NCBI RefSeq assembly: GCF_030816075.1
Contig: NZ_JAUSXO010000001.1
Location: forward strand, 1,302,001-1,366,000
Origin: Arthrobacter agilis
Lineage (GTDB): Bacteria > Actinomycetota > Actinomycetes > Actinomycetales > Micrococcaceae
Reading direction: 5' to 3'
DNA length: 64,000 bases
The position numbers and the translations under genes were made by a program. Position 1 is the stretch's first letter. Every line of letters starts with the position of its first letter. The notes beneath the pieces are model-generated. The model had not been told where the DNA came from and ran no database searches. It was given only the letters and a program-made list of their open reading frames with translations. Positions 7,661 through 63,815 of this stretch are shown here, one piece after another.

Positions 7661-8482
7661 TTACTGGTCGAAGTGGGTGGTCGCAGCGTCGGGACTGATG
7701 GAGTGGATGACTTTAGCGGCGACATCATGCAGTTTGGTGTTCCTGGCATTGGAGGCGGTTTTCAGGATGGTCATGGCGCGGTCCTGGCTACACCTGTTCT
7801 GGGCCATGATGATGCCGGCGGCGAGGTTGATGGTGGTGCGGGAGCGCATCGCGGTGGTGAGGTTCTGACCTGTGTCGGTGAGGTGAGCGATCCGTACTGC
7901 CAGCCGCAGGCACTGGGATACTTCGCGGGCGAAGTGCTCTGCTACATGCATTTTCTCATCATCGAACGAGTCGGGGGCCAGGGCGTAGAGGTTCAGCCCG
8001 CAAGCGGCTTCCCCTTCCAGGGGTACGGGCACCGCCAAGATGGAATGTACCCCGTAGCCGGAGATGGCCTTGAAGTATGCCGACCACCGCCGGTCGGTGC
8101 GGCTATCGCGCACATGGACGAGGGTTCGGGTGCGGGCGGCGGTCAGGCACGGCCCCTCCCCGAAGGAGTACTGGATTTCGTCCATGCGGCGGGCGGTTTC
8201 GCTGCTGCTGGCCACGGTGCCGTTGGTCCTGGGGCGCAGTAGTGTCACACCGCAGAGCACTTCACGTCCGGGCTCCGAGAGGCGTTCTGCGGCGAGCGTG
8301 GCCAGTGCGGTCAGGAACTCCTCCACATCGGCGCTGTCGAGGACCAGGTTCTGCAAGATGGCGGCCATTGCGACGGGGCCGTCCTCGCGCTCAGGGTGAG
8401 GCTGCTGGCTACCGGGCCCCATCGGAGAATCCGCGGCCCGCGCATTGAGGCTACTGCTGCTGGGGGTGATGCTCGGAGTCAC
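7661..8482 (-). CDS. GAF-ANTAR regulator, type A
   Basis: After a disordered N-terminus, the conserved NLVLDSADVEEFL helix leads into a GAF sensor domain (about residues 40-175; FGEGPCLTAA and VPVPLEGEAACGLNLYA are hallmark strings). An ANTAR domain follows (about 195-255; INLAAGIIMAQNRCSQDRAM). ANTAR domains bind paired RNA stem-loops and prevent transcription termination; GAF domains sense small ligands. The GTG at 8482 is preferred because GAAGG precedes it, as in the paralogue at 20391; an ATG at 8527 is possible. Closest relatives in the window are the genes at 19558 and 59646. Confidence 0.88.
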   Translation of the reverse strand: MTPSITPSSSSLNARAADSPMGPGSQQPHPEREDGPVAMAAILQNLVLDSADVEEFLTALATLAAERLSEPGREVLCGVTLLRPRTNGTVASSSETARRMDEIQYSFGEGPCLTAARTRTLVHVRDSRTDRRWSAYFKAISGYGVHSILAVPVPLEGEAACGLNLYALAPDSFDDEKMHVAEHFAREVSQCLRLAVRIAHLTDTGQNLTTAMRSRTTINLAAGIIMAQNRCSQDRAMTILKTASNARNTKLHDVAAKVIHSISPDAATTHFDQ

Positions 8483-8760: not shown

Positions 8761-9585
8761 TCAGCTACGACGGCGGTGGGAGGGTAACGCTCCGGTGGTG
8801 GCGAGGTGTTCGGCGACGTCGAGCAGTTTGATGTTCGTGTGGGAGCTGGCCTGGGTGAGCATGATGAACGCGTTCTGGGCGGTGAGGCCGTACCTTTCCA
8901 TGAGGATGCCCTTGGCCTGGCCGATGACATCGCGGGAGCGTAGGGCATCGCGCATGTGCCCGAGTTTCGTGGCGTCGGCGAAGGCGATCGCGGCGTGGGA
9001 GGCGATGAGCAGCCCGACCTGTTCCGAGTCCTCGGTGAAGGCGTGGGGTGTTCGTCCGTACAGGTTCAGGGCGCCCAGGTTGTCGCCTTCAACGTAGAGC
9101 TGGAAGGAGAGCATGCTCGCCGCGCCCAGCTCGGCGGCCTTGCGGCTGAACTTCGGCCACCGCTGCTCGGAGGCCAGGTCAGGGACGGTGACCGTCTGAT
9201 GCTCATACACGGCGTCCAGACAGGGTCCCTGCTTGGTTTCTGACTGAAGGGCGTCCACCTTCTGGGGCAGGTCGCTCGAGGGTGCGTGGGACTGGACATC
9301 GCGTCGGCCCGTCACCACGCTGATGGAGCCTTCGTCGGTACCGGGGACGAGCTCGATCGCGGCGCGCACCAGGTGGGCGAGCACTTCCTGCGGATCATCT
9401 TCTACCTGCAGGGACCGGGCCAGCTCACTCATCTGCTCAGCCAGTCCCTCCATCTCCCCGTTCTGGTCCTTCTCTCCGGTGACCTCGTCTGTTCTCTGTG
9501 AGTCCTCACTTGCGTCGCGGGCGTCGTCGTTCCCGTCTGGTCCTGCGCCGTTGGCTACCATCCACCCAGTATGGTTCCCGCCCAC
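8761..9585 (-). CDS. GAF-ANTAR regulator, type B
   Basis: The product has an acidic, probably disordered N-terminus (~45 residues), a GAF domain at about 65-195 (QGPCLDAVYEH and LGALNLYGRTPHAFTED) and an ANTAR domain at ~205-262 (VIGQAKGILMERYGLTAQNA). The GAF subtype with MSELARSLQ and LVPGTDEGSI differs from the other copies here. The start is unsettled: GTG at 9585, ATG at 9561, or a later ATG before EGLAEQ, which has a GGGGAG-type site. It lies on the same strand as the type A gene with ~280 bases between them, so it is probably a separate transcript. Confidence 0.88.
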   Translation of the reverse strand: MGGNHTGWMVANGAGPDGNDDARDASEDSQRTDEVTGEKDQNGEMEGLAEQMSELARSLQVEDDPQEVLAHLVRAAIELVPGTDEGSISVVTGRRDVQSHAPSSDLPQKVDALQSETKQGPCLDAVYEHQTVTVPDLASEQRWPKFSRKAAELGAASMLSFQLYVEGDNLGALNLYGRTPHAFTEDSEQVGLLIASHAAIAFADATKLGHMRDALRSRDVIGQAKGILMERYGLTAQNAFIMLTQASSHTNIKLLDVAEHLATTGALPSHRRRS

Positions 9586-19557: not shown

Positions 19558-20391
19558 TCAGTCGAAGTGGGTGGCGGGGGTATCGTCGCTGATGCTGGAT
19601 ACGATCTCGGTGGCAAGGCGGCGGAGTTTGATCTGCCGGTGGTTGGCAGCTGTTTTCATGATCTCGATAGCTGCTGACTGGCTGCACCGGTTCTGCCCCA
19701 TTACGATCCCTGCCGCGAGGTCGATGATGGTTCGGGACTCCAGCGCGGCGTTGAGATTCTCGGCCTTGTCCGACAACTGGGCGATACGCACAGCCAGACG
19801 CAGCGACTTGGAAGTATCACGGGCGAAGACCTTCGCGGCCTCAACGGCTTCCGGTGTGAACCCGTTAACGGTGGTGGAGTAGAAGTTCAACGCGCAATCG
19901 GCCTCGCCCTCCAGGGGGATCGGGACTCCCAGGGTGGACCGTATCCTGTGATCAGCGATCGCCTTGACGTACTGGGGCCACCGTTCATCGGTTCGGGTGT
20001 CGCGGACAAGGACGATTTCGCCGGTCCGTGCAGCTCTCAGGCAGGGACCGTCACCGAACAAGTACTGGATTCTGTCCAATTCCAGGGCATACGGGCTGCT
20101 GCTGGCCAGGGTTTTCGCGTGCCGGGGGCGCAGGAGCGTCACCCCGCACAGCACCTCATGATCCAGTCGGGACAGGTGAGTGGCAGCTACCCTGGCCAGC
20201 TTGTCGAGGAAATGGTCGACATCCGTGCTGTCCAGAACCAGGTCCTGCAGGAAAGCCGCAGTCTGCACCGACAAAGCAAGATCAGGGGCAGGATCAGAGG
20301 CAGGACTAGGGGCAGGGTTGTGGCGTTCGGTCGCGGGCGGTCCTTGGGAAAGGTCTCGTGGTACATCAACCCAGGCGAAATGCTTCATCAT
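19558..20391 (-). CDS. GAF-ANTAR regulator, type A
   Basis: This protein has a low-complexity N-terminal ~40 residues, the LQDLVLDSTDVDHFLDKLA helix, a GAF domain at about 55-190 (FGDGPCLRAARTG and LGVPIPLEGEADCALNFY) and an ANTAR domain at ~210-270 (IDLAAGIVMGQNRCSQSAAI). The ATG at 20391 is preferred because AAGGAG precedes it at seven bases. It is third in a same-strand series after a type C GAF-ANTAR gene and a small protein, an order repeated at 58453-60398. The 295 bases before it probably hold its own promoter. Confidence 0.9.
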   Translation of the reverse strand: MMKHFAWVDVPRDLSQGPPATERHNPAPSPASDPAPDLALSVQTAAFLQDLVLDSTDVDHFLDKLARVAATHLSRLDHEVLCGVTLLRPRHAKTLASSSPYALELDRIQYLFGDGPCLRAARTGEIVLVRDTRTDERWPQYVKAIADHRIRSTLGVPIPLEGEADCALNFYSTTVNGFTPEAVEAAKVFARDTSKSLRLAVRIAQLSDKAENLNAALESRTIIDLAAGIVMGQNRCSQSAAIEIMKTAANHRQIKLRRLATEIVSSISDDTPATHFD

Positions 20392-20686: not shown

Positions 20687-20944
20687 TCAGGGGTCTTCGT
20701 TGCTGTAGGGGGCGGTGGGCGGCGCTGTTTCAGCGATGAGTTCGTTGACGGCGTGGGAGACGAGGTCCCGGTCCAGTGGTGTCAGGCTGATCATCCCGTT
20801 GAGGTAGGCATCGACCTCGAACTCGTCGACATTTCCGGCGAGGGAGAAGTAGCGTATCCACACATTTTGGACGGTGAGTCCCGAGAGTTGCATGGCGTGC
20901 AGTGTGAGTCGGCGTTGTTCCTCGGCGGTGTCTTTGATGGTCAT
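20687..20944 (-). CDS. Small 'WIRYFSL' domain protein, copy 1 (85 residues)
   Basis: I do not recognise a named domain. The protein is helical and soluble. Its signature is VWIRYFSLAGNVDEFEVDAY, followed by LNGMISLTPLDRDLVSHAVN. Its ATG overlaps the stop codon of the GAF-ANTAR gene by four bases (ATGA), indicating translational coupling. The same domain occurs at 59211 (after another type C GAF-ANTAR gene), at 28979, and as the N-terminal part of a GAF protein at 61037. I infer a partner in the GAF-ANTAR pathway. Confidence 0.85.
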   Translation of the reverse strand: MTIKDTAEEQRRLTLHAMQLSGLTVQNVWIRYFSLAGNVDEFEVDAYLNGMISLTPLDRDLVSHAVNELIAETAPPTAPYSNEDP

Positions 20945-21696
20945 GAGTCACCGCTGGGTGTGGAACCGTCCTGACGCTCACTGATCATGGCGGCCATGGT
21001 GCCGATGGTGGTGTTCGCGTCGGTGGCAAGTTCGATCAGGTGACTCATCGCTGCCTGCCGGTCCAGATTGAAGCGTTCCATCAAGATGCCGCGGGCGACG
21101 CCGATGGTATCCCGTTCGGCCAGAGAGGCTCTGACATCATCGCTGATGCGCTGCGGTGTGTCGCTGGCCTGGATGTGGCCCAGGAGGGCCGCGGCCGACC
21201 GGGCGAGGTTGATCAGCAGCCGCCGGTCCTCGTTGGTGAACGCGTCGACGGTGTTCGAGTAGACCTTCATCGCCCCGAGTCCTGCCGGCTTGTTCAACAG
21301 GGGCACGCTGAGGCAGGAGCGGATACCGAGCTTCGTCACTGCGGACGTCCACTCTTGGAACCGGTCATCGGTGTGGGTGTCGGGGATGTAGGTCGGTTCA
21401 CCGGTGGACCAGGCGCGCATGCAGGGTCCCTGACCAAATTCGTATTGGAGGTTGTCGGCTTCGAGGACGTCCGGGTTGGTGGCTCCGACGCTGATCCGGG
21501 TACCGTCCTGATCGATGATGCTCACGCCGGCGCCCGTCGCTGCACCGATGATGTCCCGGGCGATCTCGGCGAGCCCATTGACCGCGTCGTGGGCTGTCTG
21601 CTCGGTCAGGAGGTATCCGTTGCTGCGGCCGAAGATCGCCAGGAGCTCGCGGGGAGGTGCGGAATCGGGGGATGAGGAAGAGGGTGTGGTGTTCAC
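20941..21696 (-). CDS. GAF-ANTAR regulator, type C, copy 1
   Basis: A 251-residue protein that begins at a GTG. A short Ser/Pro-rich N-terminus leads to ELLAIFGRSNGYLL, then a GAF domain at ~28-165 (EFGQGPCMRAWSTGEP and GIRSCLSVPLLNKPAGLGAM) and an ANTAR domain at ~185-240 (TIGVARGILMERFNLDRQAA). It is strongly similar to the protein at 58453. A two-hairpin leader precedes both. ANTAR proteins act by binding structured RNA, so this leader may be its own target or that of a paralogue; this is inference. Confidence 0.92.
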   Translation of the reverse strand: MNTTPSSSSPDSAPPRELLAIFGRSNGYLLTEQTAHDAVNGLAEIARDIIGAATGAGVSIIDQDGTRISVGATNPDVLEADNLQYEFGQGPCMRAWSTGEPTYIPDTHTDDRFQEWTSAVTKLGIRSCLSVPLLNKPAGLGAMKVYSNTVDAFTNEDRRLLINLARSAAALLGHIQASDTPQRISDDVRASLAERDTIGVARGILMERFNLDRQAAMSHLIELATDANTTIGTMAAMISERQDGSTPSGDS

Positions 21697-21803
21697 GGTA
21701 GGCCTTCAGCTGTCCAACACAGGGGTGTCACCCCTGCCGGTTGTGGGCTGTGGGCTCAACCCCGGTAGACCTCGCTCACGCAACATCTACTCCAGAACTG
21801 TAC
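21697..21803 (-). promoter_or_regulatory. Conserved two-hairpin leader RNA, copy 1
   Basis: Read as RNA from the minus strand, a 26-nt hairpin (21790-21765) has a six-pair stem GUAGAU/GUCUAC, a G-G mismatch, the four-pair stem UUGC/GCGA and a GUGA tetraloop. After 28 nt a second 17-nt hairpin (21736-21720) has stem CAGGGG/CCCCUG and loop UGACA. Then 23 nt, including GAAGG, lead to the GTG. The leader at 58345 has the same elements with almost the same spacing and compensating base changes. Confidence 0.7.
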
Positions 21804-57950: not shown

Positions 57951-58344
57951 ACCCTAGGTCTGAGAGGCCCTGCAAGTCTGCCACCATCCTGACTCACAAA
58001 GCCCGACAACGAGCACTAGAGGTGAAACGCGGCGACACAAGTCTGCATGACACAAGCCGCCCACGAATCTGGGGAGCGGGTCCGGAGAGCAACACCTCAT
58101 GAAATGTCTTGAGAGCCTATAGGTTTACGAGACGCCTCAAGACCGGAGCATAGTCCGAATCGATGAACCTCTGTGGCACCAGTGCGTGCATCATCATCGT
58201 GCGGGCTCAGCGCACCTCTCGCCCGAGGCACACACCAGCAACATCCTGATCCTGCTTGCAGCGTCCTCATGGTAGGCGGCACAAGAAGCGGTGCGGGCTA
58301 CAAGCGGCACGGGAATTCTTTTTCCGGTGGTGTGGGAGTAGCAG
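57951..58344. other. Intergenic with solo res-like site
   Basis: Apart from res-like copy C no feature is seen. No resolvase gene or relic flanks it. Confidence 0.45.
58019..58134. other. res-like recombination site, copy C (solo)
   Basis: The first part, GAGGTGAAACGCGGCGACAC then AAGTCTGCATGACACAAG, and the second, TGTCTTGAGAGCCTATAGG...TTTACGAGACG, keep the spacing of copies A and B (86-89 bases). The second half has TGTCT/AGACG inverted ends. Confidence 0.55.
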
Positions 58345-58452
58345 TAGAGTTCATAGCGTAGATGTTGCGCAAGCGGGATCTACCGGGGTCGAGCACACGG
58401 CCTCCTACCGGCCCGGGGTAATGCCCCGGTGCAGGACAGTTGAAGGCCCACC
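58345..58452 (+). promoter_or_regulatory. Conserved two-hairpin leader RNA, copy 2
   Basis: The first hairpin (58358-58383, 26 nt) has stem GUAGAU/AUCUAC, a G-G mismatch, the four-pair stem UUGC/GCGG and a GCAA tetraloop. The second (58413-58429, 17 nt) has stem CCGGGG/CCCCGG and loop UAAUG. It ends 23 nt before the GTG, with GAAGG as ribosome binding site. Relative to copy 1 the pairs U-A/U-G, A-U/C-G and U-G/U-A differ while pairing is kept. Confidence 0.7.
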
Positions 58453-59211
58453 GTGAATACCACCCCCCAACCCTCCTCTTCCTCGGCTTCCCCGTTTCCG
58501 CCTGAGCTGCTGGCAATATTCGGGCGGACCAACGGGTACCTCCTCACCGAACAGACCGCCCACGCGGCCGTCGACGGTCTGGCCGGAATCGCCCGCGACA
58601 TCATCGGCCCCGCCCAAGGCGCCGGAGTGAGCCTCATCGACACCGACGGCACCCGTGTGAGCGTCGGCGCGACCGACTCACGCGTGCTCGAAGCCGATGA
58701 CCTGCAGTACGAACTGGGTCAGGGCCCGTGCATGAGCGCCTGGTCAGCAGGTAAGCCCGTCTATATTGCCGACACCCACACTGATCAGAGGTTCACAGAG
58801 TGGACGTCCGCGGTGATACCGCTCGGTGTCCGGTCCTGCCTCAGCGTGCCACTGCTGGACAAGCCCGCAGGACTGGGGGCGATGAAGATCTACTCGAACA
58901 CCACCGACGCATTTTCGGACGAGGACCGGCGGCTGTTGACCAACCTCGCCCGCTCCGCCGCAGCCCTCCTTGGGCACATCCAGGGCTCTGACATCCCGCA
59001 GCGGATCAGCAATGACGTCAAGGCGTCCCTGGCCGAACGGGACACCATCGGAGTGGCTCGCGGCATGCTGATGGAACGCTTCAATCTGGACCGGCAGGCG
59101 GCCATGAACCACCTGATCAACCTCGCCACTGGCGCGAACACCACCATCGGCTCCATGGCCACCATGATCAGTGAGCGTCAGGACGGCACCACCCCCACCG
59201 CTGGTGCGTAA
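58453..59211 (+). CDS. GAF-ANTAR regulator, type C, copy 2
   Basis: A 252-residue close paralogue of the protein at 20941, with a GTG start. GAF domain at ~28-165 (LGQGPCMSAWSAGKPVYIAD and GVRSCLSVPLLDKPAGLGAM), ANTAR domain at ~185-240 (TIGVARGMLMERFNLDRQAA). It is followed with TAATG overlap by a WIRYF-type gene and then by a type A GAF-ANTAR gene. A shared leader suggests that copies 1 and 2 are regulated by the same mechanism. Confidence 0.92.
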   Translation: MNTTPQPSSSSASPFPPELLAIFGRTNGYLLTEQTAHAAVDGLAGIARDIIGPAQGAGVSLIDTDGTRVSVGATDSRVLEADDLQYELGQGPCMSAWSAGKPVYIADTHTDQRFTEWTSAVIPLGVRSCLSVPLLDKPAGLGAMKIYSNTTDAFSDEDRRLLTNLARSAAALLGHIQGSDIPQRISNDVKASLAERDTIGVARGMLMERFNLDRQAAMNHLINLATGANTTIGSMATMISERQDGTTPTAGA

Positions 59212-59552
59212 TGCCTAAGCACAGGCCGGAGAAGCAACGGGAGGGCACCCTGCAGGCCATGCATGCCAGTGGACTCGACGTGCAGAGCGTCTGGATCCGC
59301 TACTTCTCCCTCTCCGGGAACGCCGATGAGTTCGAGGTCGACGCCTACCTCAGTGGGCTGATCACCCTCAGCCCACTGGACAGGGACCTTGTCTCCCACG
59401 CGGTCAACGAACTCATCACCGAAGCAGCCCCACCCACCGCCCCTTACAGCAACGACCCGCAGGTTTCGATTGCCCAAAAGGTTCTGGACATTCTGGACCC
59501 TTCGGATGGGCGGAACGAGCGGAACGAGGACGGCCGGGGACAGGGCCAATAG
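59211..59552 (+). CDS. Small 'WIRYFSL' domain protein, copy 3 (113 residues)
   Basis: The core SVWIRYFSLSGNADEFEVDA, then YLSGLITLSPLDRDLVSHAV and NELITEAAPPTAPYSND, is nearly the same as in the 85-residue protein at 20687. A polar C-terminal tail of ~30 residues is extra. The start overlaps the upstream stop (TAATG). Translational coupling in both blocks argues that this protein works with the GAF-ANTAR regulator in fixed stoichiometry. Confidence 0.87.
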   Translation: MPKHRPEKQREGTLQAMHASGLDVQSVWIRYFSLSGNADEFEVDAYLSGLITLSPLDRDLVSHAVNELITEAAPPTAPYSNDPQVSIAQKVLDILDPSDGRNERNEDGRGQGQ

Positions 59553-59645: not shown

Positions 59646-60398
59646 ATGACCGAAGAACGCGTTGAGGACGGTATTGAGCACACCATGAGCGAGCCGGCAC
59701 AGCTTCAGGACCTCGTCCTGGACAGCGCGGACCTCGAGCGATTCCTGAACAGACTCGCCGTGTTCGCAGCAGCCACGTTCTCCAACGAAACCCGGGAAGT
59801 GTTCTGCAGCGTCACGCTGCTACGCCCCAAAAGCAAGAGCATCATCGCCAGCAGCAGCGACCAGGCCAAGAACCTCGACGAAGTGCAACTCGCCTACGAC
59901 GACGGCCCGTGCCTGCGTGCGGCACGCGAGGGCCAGATCTACGTCGTGAAAGACTTCACGACCGACGATCGCTTCGGCGCATATTCCGCGGCCATGCTCA
60001 GCCACGGAATCCGGTCCGCTCTGGGTGTGCCCATCGCCCTGGACGGCCATGCAGCTGCGGGTCTGAACCTGTACGCGACCGCCCCTGACAGCTTTGATCC
60101 TGACGTCATGACAGCCGCGGACACGCTCGGCAGGGAAGCATCACAACTGCTGCGGATGGCCGTCCATATCGCTCACCTCACGGCCACCAACCACCACCTC
60201 ACCCAGGCTCTGAGCTCCCGAACCACGATCGATGTCGCCGCGGGCATCATCATGGCTCAGAACCGGTGTAGTCACGATGACGCGATGACCATCCTCAAAG
60301 CTGCCTCGAGCGGACGGAACATGAAACTCCATGATGTCGCCGGTGCTGTTGTCGCCTCGCTCGGACAGCAGACGCCCACGACCCACTTCAACCCCTGA
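59646..60398 (+). CDS. GAF-ANTAR regulator, type A
   Basis: The 250-residue protein has a short N-terminus, the LQDLVLDSADLERFLNRLA helix, a GAF domain at ~25-160 (YDDGPCLRAAREGQIYVVKD and LGVPIALDGHAAAGLNLYAT) and an ANTAR domain at ~185-245 (IDVAAGIIMAQNRCSHDDAM). It ends TPTTHFNP, matching the DTPATHFD ending of the 19558 protein. AAAGGA precedes the ATG at 59646. It is third in the block, like the gene at 19558. Confidence 0.9.
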   Translation: MTEERVEDGIEHTMSEPAQLQDLVLDSADLERFLNRLAVFAAATFSNETREVFCSVTLLRPKSKSIIASSSDQAKNLDEVQLAYDDGPCLRAAREGQIYVVKDFTTDDRFGAYSAAMLSHGIRSALGVPIALDGHAAAGLNLYATAPDSFDPDVMTAADTLGREASQLLRMAVHIAHLTATNHHLTQALSSRTTIDVAAGIIMAQNRCSHDDAMTILKAASSGRNMKLHDVAGAVVASLGQQTPTTHFNP

Positions 60399-63083: not shown

Positions 63084-63815
63084 GTGCCCGGGCACCAGAG
63101 CCGGTGGACACTCGCTATCGGACTGGCCCAAAAACGGGCCGGTTCTTCCGCCGCGTCGAAAGCTCCTCCCGTGACCCGCGTCTTCCCCTCGTCCGCGTCG
63201 TCTGCCGCACCGTTACCTCCCCCCGACGGCGTCACCGATCAGGCCGATCCGGGACCCAAGCTTCCGGACTGTCCTACCGGGACCTACGAGTTCTACTTCG
63301 ACTCCGGCACCTTCCTCTGGTCGGATGAGATGTACGAGATCCACGGCTATGAACGAGGAGACGTCGTTCCATCCCTCGAGCTCGGCTTCGCGCACATCGA
63401 CCCGGCCGACCTGCACAACAGTCGTGCACTGATGGACCGCCTCACCAATGAAGGCGGACCAATCGCCGGGTACCACACCCTCATCGATGCGAAGCAGCGA
63501 CGTCATCAGGTCCTCAGCGTCGCGGACCTGATCACCGACGCCGGTGGGACGACCGTCGGCATCAGGGGTGTGCTCGCCGACCTCACCCAACGGATCCACA
63601 ACGACACGCACCGCCTCGCGAACCAGGCCGTCGCCGACTCCGCCGCGCACCGCGCCATCATCGAGCAGGCCAAAGGCATTCTGATGGCCACACACCACAT
63701 CAGCGCCGACGATGCATTCGCAATGATCAGCAACCGCAGCCAGAACACGAACCGCAAAGTCAACGACATTGCCCGAGACATCGTGAATACCACCAGCACT
63801 CCGCCCCTGCGGTGA
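63084..63815 (+). CDS. PAS-ANTAR regulator
   Basis: The 243-residue protein has a disordered N-terminus (~45 residues), a PAS-fold domain at ~60-160 (TYEFYFDSGTFLWSDEMYEI, then HGYERGDVVPSLELGFAHID) and an ANTAR domain at ~180-240 (IIEQAKGILMATHHISADDA, then RSQNTNRKVNDIARDIV). The GTG at 63084 follows AAGGAG. PAS folds sense small ligands or redox signals; ANTAR binds RNA. It is the seventh ANTAR protein in the window, and the only one with PAS in place of GAF. Confidence 0.9.
   Translation: MPGHQSRWTLAIGLAQKRAGSSAASKAPPVTRVFPSSASSAAPLPPPDGVTDQADPGPKLPDCPTGTYEFYFDSGTFLWSDEMYEIHGYERGDVVPSLELGFAHIDPADLHNSRALMDRLTNEGGPIAGYHTLIDAKQRRHQVLSVADLITDAGGTTVGIRGVLADLTQRIHNDTHRLANQAVADSAAHRAIIEQAKGILMATHHISADDAFAMISNRSQNTNRKVNDIARDIVNTTSTPPLR

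Follow-up and report, generated by a model that had tools for sequence, protein, structure and literature searches.

Two genes for GAF-ANTAR proteins in a 64,000-nucleotide (nt) stretch of the Arthrobacter agilis genome, here called the window, begin with similar leaders, one near 58 kb on the plus strand and one near 21 kb on the minus strand. Do these leaders carry a cis-acting RNA element, and what would read it? An earlier note on this DNA had described two covarying hairpins in both leaders, P1 and P2, separated by a linker. Our data indicate that the conserved core is a middle hairpin overlooked in this "linker", and that P1 and P2 are the variable parts. The core hairpin shows conservation with covariation, a position behind a -10-like box and an association with GAF-ANTAR genes, and the RNA element itself is well supported. 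It may be a variant ANTAR-type cis-acting mRNA element, read by GAF-ANTAR proteins for auto- and cross-regulation, an explanation to which we give slightly less than an even chance. The parts of the two leaders, which belong to a leader type called class A below, are as follows.

58345..58350, plus strand: -10-like box TAGAGT of an inferred promoter, 58 kb leader; from the sequence and TANNNT counterparts in other class A leaders
58358..58383, plus strand: P1, a variable 5' hairpin with GNRA loop GCAA; from folding and relatives
58387..58402, plus strand: core hexaloop hairpin GGUCG-AGCACA-CGGCC; from RNAalifold of 8 leaders and covariation in relatives
58413..58429, plus strand: P2 hairpin CCGGGG-UAAUG-CCCCGG; folding z -2.9
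58442..58446, plus strand: Shine-Dalgarno (SD)-like GAAGG, 6 nt before the GTG; from the sequence
58453..59211, plus strand: GAF-ANTAR gene, 252 residues; Pfam GAF_2 1.9e-17, ANTAR 5.5e-9
21797..21802, minus strand: -10-like box TACAGT of an inferred promoter, 21 kb leader; from the sequence
21765..21790, minus strand: P1 hairpin with GNRA loop GUGA; folding z -3.8
21746..21761, minus strand: core hexaloop hairpin GGUUG-AGCCCA-CAGCC; from RNAalifold of 8 leaders and covariation in relatives
21720..21736, minus strand: P2 hairpin, 17 nt; folding z -2.6
21703..21707, minus strand: SD-like GAAGG; from the sequence
20941..21696, minus strand: GAF-ANTAR gene, 251 residues; Pfam GAF_2 6.9e-18, ANTAR 9e-11

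The coordinates of P1 and P2 were re-derived and agree with the earlier description. In both leaders P1 has 26 nt and a GNRA loop and P2 has 17 nt, the two are 29 nt (58 kb) or 28 nt (21 kb) apart, and P2 ends 23 nt before the GTG. P1 contains a single G-G mismatch in both copies. The P2 loop has 3-5 nt, and P2 follows the core hairpin after 10 nt in the 58 kb copy and 9 nt in the 21 kb copy. The TANNNT box stands 7 nt (58 kb) or 6 nt (21 kb) before P1, and transcription therefore probably starts upstream of or at P1, with predicted starts near 58356 (plus strand) and 21791 (minus strand); scanning the 58 kb leader for the sigma-70 consensus gave no promoter-like site. No Rfam 15 family matched in the whole window at the gathering threshold. 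A sub-threshold scan of the window (E up to 5) gave three matches, none at a leader, and such a scan of 12 relatives (E up to 1) gave no leader match.

Whole-leader folding gave z values of -1.35 (58 kb) and -1.31 (21 kb), and 24 and 20 of 200 shuffles folded equally well. The two leaders alone are weak evidence, and the claim stands because their relatives keep the structure. Other genomes of the genus contain relatives of the window-type leader, and the two named relatives found for the gene are from Arthrobacter sp. SX1312 and A. cheniae. RNAalifold of 8 aligned leaders (alignment A2) gave P1, P2 and a third hairpin in the linker, GGUUG-AGCANN-CAGCC, with five pairs (six with an outer G-C or G-U) and a six-base loop. 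Paired cells amounted to 94.6% in A2 compared with a shuffled mean of 92.3% (2 of 500 shuffles as high) and 40-50% in slid controls, and there were 4 double-change cells compared with 1.5 in the shuffled alignments (12 of 500 as high). Covariation of two hairpins, as first claimed, was borne out in part: pairing is kept across the 8 leaders, but P1 and P2 taken alone have one double-change pair each. P1 has insertions in four of the 8 leaders (L010, L012, L013 and L024). In L032, L050 and L056 the P1 sequences are quite different, yet a hairpin lies directly before the core (p 0.000, 0.087 and 0.007). Measured against composition-keeping shuffles of each leader's own segment, the stability of P1 reached p < 0.05 in 7 of 11 leaders of class A and in 1 of 10 leaders of a second type, class B, and that of P2 did so in 3 of 11 class A leaders; the 58 kb P1 was truncated in this test, and its P1 value counts neither way. 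Since P1 and P2 vary while the middle hairpin is conserved, the two-hairpin model as first stated was dropped.

The core hairpin has the consensus XGUYN-AGNNNN-NRGCX, and its commonest loop is AGNAGN. Covariation was counted in two sets. In A3 (23 leaders, with rows chosen by a regular-expression rule that itself demands pairing) there were 24 double-change cells compared with 9.1 after shuffling. A6, which comprises 26 short leaders minus 3 near copies, was 97.4% paired and had 21 double-change cells compared with 8.6. In neither set did any of 500 shuffles reach the observed number. From 59 leaders, 47 distinct hairpins were collected, misfits among them, and 42 of the 47 have a complete five-pair stem. 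At the third pair, 42 hairpins have U.G, 3 have C-G and 2 have U-A; at the fifth, C-G occurs in 19, G-C in 11, U-A in 11 and U-G in 4, and 2 are unpaired. The near-constant wobble at the third pair, together with the pair swaps, points to an RNA structure rather than a DNA palindrome or inverted repeat. Both window loops begin with A, as do 46 of the 47 hairpin loops; A1 was a selection criterion for most of these. At position 4 the 58 kb loop has A and the 21 kb loop has C, and of the 47 hairpins 41 have A, 5 have C and 1 has G. The sole hairpin without A1 belongs to L041 (G016:C46), a GAF-ANTAR leader with the loop GGCAGA.

The hairpin is also placed regularly. In all 26 short leaders, which were hand-picked, a TANNNT box lies 5-11 nt before it, a rule satisfied at 1.0% of random positions in those loci. 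In classes A and B the core hairpin comes after another hairpin and lies 31-50 nt behind the box; the 58 kb copy, entered in the class A comparison with the alternative box TAGCGT, is 36 nt from TAGAGT.

How widespread is the hairpin among GAF-ANTAR genes? Fifty such genes of the genus were chosen by protein homology alone, regardless of their leaders. A 5-bp stem with an AGNNNN loop was found within 200 nt upstream on the sense strand in 32 of them, compared with 5 on the antisense strand and a mean of 4.2 (maximum 9) in 200 dinucleotide shuffles. With GUY..RGC fixed the numbers were 31 of 50, 2 antisense and 0.09 shuffled, and with the loop AGNAGN they were 26 of 50, 2 and 0.005. The leader classes differ in their accessory hairpins. 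Class B has the -10 box TAGGAT in 7 of 10 leaders, P1 is present, and P2 has a six-base loop beginning with A in 7 of the 10 folded. Class C has no P1, and the hairpin lies 5-6 nt behind TATCTT or a similar box. Class D, drawn from the ANTAR set of the A. agilis genome and a search of the order, comprises other GAF-ANTAR genes with the hairpin 6-9 nt behind the box. The hairpin is kept, with double changes, between genes of about 45-55% protein identity, and the remaining leader sequence has turned over. In another genus of the family, GAF-ANTAR genes have the hairpin behind a TANNNT box (measured in L169 and L192, seen in L264), and L179, a gene from another family, has a similar hairpin.

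The A. agilis genome has 33 ANTAR matches over the Pfam cut-off in 3.86 Mb, and a control search found no ANTAR match in 14 named genomes. A five-pair hairpin is present at 8 of these 33 genes (the two window genes, L090, L092, L096, L098, L101 and L102), and a four-pair form is present at L086 and L094. Seven of the 33 matches are inside the window.

7706-7864, minus strand: Pfam ANTAR match
8803-8958, minus strand: Pfam ANTAR match
19600-19761, minus strand: Pfam ANTAR match
20983-21138, minus strand: Pfam ANTAR match
59014-59169, plus strand: Pfam ANTAR match
60195-60353, plus strand: Pfam ANTAR match
63639-63785, plus strand: Pfam ANTAR match

Each leader-bearing GAF-ANTAR gene of the window is adjoined on its 3' side by a gene for a small protein, of 113 residues (59211-59552, plus strand) and 85 residues (20687-20944, minus strand). 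Both small proteins share the core VWIRYFSL.GN.DEFEVDAYL.G, and a second GAF-ANTAR gene then comes downstream. The 113-residue protein has no Pfam family at its cut-off.

The earlier note had tied a cis RNA element to GAF-ANTAR genes and proposed a search with a covariance model. The element is conserved, further homologues with kept pairing were found, and the matches of models built from the leaders lie mostly before GAF-ANTAR genes. Model R1, spanning the core hairpin through the start codon, was built on A3 and searched in 38 genomes of the genus. At E < 1e-4 it gave 45 matches. Thirty-nine of these are at GAF-ANTAR starts, including 22 training rows and one gene with an inner stop (G007:C5); the others are 4 leaders before short or broken frames (L136-L139) and 2 places in coding sequence. 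L136 (G019:C20:51275-51345) is a window-type leader with a proper GTG and no long frame behind it, and is perhaps a gene remnant. The 25 weaker R1 matches inspected were mostly in coding sequence, and L041, L142, L152 and L149 are leaders by context. In 245 genomes of the family, searched with stricter filters, 11 had a match at E <= 3e-4. Eight of them are of the same genus (the match in G001 is in coding sequence), and the three single matches outside the genus are by eye no leaders. Model R2, the -10 box plus hairpin, was built on A6 and searched in the same 38 genomes with a cut-off of E <= 0.014, weaker matches being partly inspected. It gave 42 matches, 13 of them training rows. The 29 others comprise 19 GAF-ANTAR genes (3 known beforehand, and many of the rest orthologues of class D training genes), 5 GNAT genes, one open reading frame (ORF) of an 88-residue family (L307), 2 places without an assigned gene (L305 and L326) and 2 in coding sequence (L332 and L334).

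At the GNAT acetyltransferase gene of the genus (PF14542 in L336 and L142), the distance from a -10-like box to the hairpin is 11-12 nt. Its leaders are L328, L330, L331, L336, L339, L340, L299, L142 and L152, and L142 was in the R2 training set. The 88-residue ORF family (about 80-90 residues, MNTRLTPSE...) has the same leader in L220, L149, L307 and L321. L220 (G000 1380936, minus strand) is in the A. agilis genome, where the 88-residue ORF lies between two ANTAR genes; the L149 ORF has no Pfam match. A hairpin UGUCU-AGAAGA-AGGCG was seen behind -10-like boxes at similar places in three genomes (L337 at G000 2348201, plus strand, L338 and L305), in each case with no evident target gene. Plain patterns were tried and rejected. 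The pattern GTYNAGNAGNNRGC was not enriched in the genome (67 matches, and 100 when read backwards), and GGTYYAGCAGNRGGCC in 396 genomes fell mostly in coding sequence among 45 places inspected from the matches listed. Context (the -10 box and the start codon) is needed.

An independent link of the hairpin to ANTAR is found in a genus of another family of the order, f11. Here the hairpin lies 7-8 nt behind a -10-like box (7 measured) and 32-34 nt from a TetR gene (8 measured). The gene behind the hairpin is TetR-like in 10 of 11 genomes (3 by Pfam, the rest by translation or tblastn), and the exception, G521, has a 106-residue ORF there. In 7 of the 11 genomes the stop codon of a GAF-ANTAR gene lies 36-38 nt upstream of the hairpin. 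Of the other four, G603 has an ANTAR match below the cut-off at this place, two have an ANTAR gene within about 0.8 kb, and in one the nearest is 6.7 kb away. ANTAR matches were compared in 21 of 38 genomes, hand-picked as 11 with the leader and 10 without. At least two ANTAR matches were present in 11 of 11 genomes with the leader and in 2 of 10 without it, where the other 8 have one (Fisher 2e-4).

Is this hairpin one of the known ANTAR targets? The minimal ANTAR binding motif has been redefined as a single hexaloop (PMC8934654). Like the target RNAs of EutV, NasR and AmiR, the element has a short stem closing a six-base loop whose first base is A, and it is located in a leader (PMC3369931, PMC8934654). 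The earlier note saw no match to the published hexaloop motif. This needs correction in that the linker is a hexaloop hairpin with A1, and it remains true in that G4 and a second hexaloop are absent. Instead of G, position 4 of the loop has A or C. The dual hexaloop motif calls for a second hairpin with a six-base loop after a linker of 2-25 nt, and both hairpins are needed for full binding (PMC3369931), whereas the window leaders have one hexaloop and P2 has its shorter loop. EutV and NasR act by antitermination (PMC3369931, PMC7496416); in contrast, no terminator was found at the 58 kb leader, and none of the EutV contacts is present in the ANTAR domains of the window. Actinobacterial ANTAR RNAs were defined as dual hexaloops with A1 and G4 conserved in more than half, and the organisms predicted to have nearly 10 up to 36 of them per genome include some Arthrobacter species (PMC8164766). 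The linked genes are described there by class (transport, metabolism, transcription and others). The main text of PMC8164766 contains neither 'GAF' nor 'autoregul'; its tables lie outside this comparison, and overlap with the present leaders is possible. By the features tested, the window leaders are outside the dual-hexaloop family as so defined, and their function may be similar. Literature searches found no description of RNA elements in the leaders of GAF-ANTAR genes. EutV Tyr164 stacks on G4. At this position the leader-bearing ANTAR proteins of the A. agilis genome have M, L or I in 8 of 10 and F in L086 and L090, and the leader-less proteins that were aligned have F in 10 of 22; these genes are related, and the pattern may be due to descent. 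Among the ANTAR proteins of this genome, that of L077 is the one that retains most EutV-like residues.

How might the element act? The core hexaloop hairpin is flanked in this gene class by the variable P1 and P2, and the element would end at the ribosome-binding site. The hairpin might be read by the encoded GAF-ANTAR protein or by a paralogue among the 33 ANTAR matches, resulting in auto- or cross-regulation. With less certainty, holding the hexaloop hairpin might change access to the ribosome-binding site and so act on translation start. This action is proposed because the hairpin strand can pair with the SD and start region in the window copies and in some other groups, and the evidence for it is mixed. 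The 58 kb GAAGG has partial complementarity to the 3' strand of the hexaloop hairpin. When the window copies were folded freely, the hexaloop was open and the SD was partly paired. Forcing the hexaloop raised SD openness from 0.27 to 0.62 (58 kb) and from 0.40 to 0.62 (21 kb). The hairpin strand is antisense to the SD and start region in the 21 kb copy (p 0.010), L011 (0.007) and L055 (0.003). Complementarity between this region and the hairpin's 5' strand was seen in 12 of 12 near-identical class B leaders (p 0.000-0.09, shuffled windows), and in the f11 TetR leaders the hairpin strand is antisense to it in 6 of 8 at p <= 0.008. Pairing to the SD was no stronger for cognate strands than for within-class swaps in classes A, B and E, and it was stronger in C and D (5 and 3 leaders). 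The simplest model for the window genes, derived from these folds and not general, is that binding of the hexaloop would free the SD. Mycobacterial ANTAR-RNAs are reported to repress translation at the ribosome-binding site, possibly by occlusion (cited in PMC8164766). The proposed site of action is alike, but in the window leaders the hexaloop and SD sequestration seem to be mutually exclusive. The window genes may also be controlled with the opposite sign, by such occlusion.

Several results weigh against our explanation. The RNA contacts of EutV are K143, K147, Y164, R168, M172, N173, R175 and R177 (PMC8934654), and in the window proteins these positions are occupied by D, V, M, I, T, G or D, N and T, so that none of the eight is kept. 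G4, which has been called obligatory for efficient antitermination by EutV (PMC8934654, PMC3369931), is absent from the leader loop. These two facts imply that the proteins read the loop in their own way, that a paralogue binds, or that the reader is not an ANTAR protein, and because of them our confidence in ANTAR binding stays near one half. Other measures of covariation were less clear. The numbers of pairs with double change and of pair types were reached by 147 and 388 of 500 shuffles in A3 and by 45 and 60 in A6, and in A2 the 3 pairs with double change (1.4 expected from shuffling) were reached by 61 of 500. The rows are related by descent, and the counts are not independent. The stricter hairpin rule was failed by 19 of the 50 GAF-ANTAR genes, some of which have a four-pair form, and no hairpin was found at 23 of the 33 ANTAR genes of the A. 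agilis genome. Among 30 GAF-ANTAR relatives scanned with the AG rule, 25 were without the hairpin and 5 had it; a sixth, L167, has a hairpin with U-A as the third pair. With the hexaloop forced in 24 leaders, SD openness rose by at least 0.05 in 8, fell likewise in 9 and was unchanged in 7, and it was lowered in 5 of 7 class B leaders. For SD pairing, p exceeded 0.05 in 17 of the 20 leaders not belonging to class B (0.17 in the 58 kb copy) and in 5 of 6 GNAT leaders. A general switch between the hairpin strand and the SD was therefore rejected, as the pairing is present in some groups only and rises and falls were about equally frequent in the folding test.

Alternatively, the 5' leader might be truly structured but have a non-ANTAR reader. 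Candidates are a different RNA-binding protein, a nuclease, a small RNA and a ligand, and the leader could, for instance, be a 5'-terminal hairpin that sets mRNA stability. The absence of the EutV contacts from the window ANTAR domains and of G4 from the loop would fit such a reader, as would the presence of the hairpin before GNAT, TetR and 88-residue genes and its position near the probable 5' end. However, the targets found are mostly GAF-ANTAR genes, the f11 TetR gene follows directly behind one in 7 of 11 genomes, and the sequence conservation of loop and stem exceeds the need of a stability hairpin. We consider a non-ANTAR reader possible but rather doubtful. EutV and NasR are known to act by classical ANTAR antitermination (PMC3369931, PMC7496416), in which leader hairpins would be set against an intrinsic terminator. 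It is unlikely here because no terminator-like site is present in 58200-58500, in a scan of the 58 kb leader only; moreover, no U run follows P2, which ends 23 nt before the start codon, and the window leaders have no second hexaloop. We regard this mechanism as very improbable.

The near-fixed place right behind the -10 box in short leaders is what would be expected of a DNA operator overlapping the transcription start, with the inverted repeat arising by chance. Yet a T.G third pair in 42 of the 47 distinct hairpins gives no DNA symmetry, and in classes A and B the hairpin is 31-50 nt behind the box and follows another hairpin, so an operator seems improbable. Could the hairpin be a functionless residual similarity among young paralogues? 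The GAF-ANTAR rows are indeed related genes, many of them from one genus. Against this stand the double changes kept at the protein identities given above in leaders that have otherwise turned over, and the hairpins before unrelated genes, and there is very little probability that the similarity is only residual. Our explanation of a variant ANTAR-type element could be extended further, to an undescribed RNA regulon with its own loop code (XGUYN-AGNAGN-NRGCX), hairpins located at mRNA 5' ends or close to them, GAF-ANTAR readers without the G4-reading contacts, partial use of translation switches, and a network that includes GNAT and TetR genes. This extension is tentative.

Our study provides a 16-nt hairpin as a concrete and short candidate target that is linked to the GAF-ANTAR proteins' own genes. 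This branch may lie outside the accepted A1/G4 rule for ANTAR targets. If our explanation is true, it would reveal the wiring among dozens of paralogous RNA-binding regulators in a single cell. The large GAF-ANTAR sets of this strain and of its relatives in the order would then be tied into an auto- and cross-regulated network with a few outside genes, those for GNAT and TetR.
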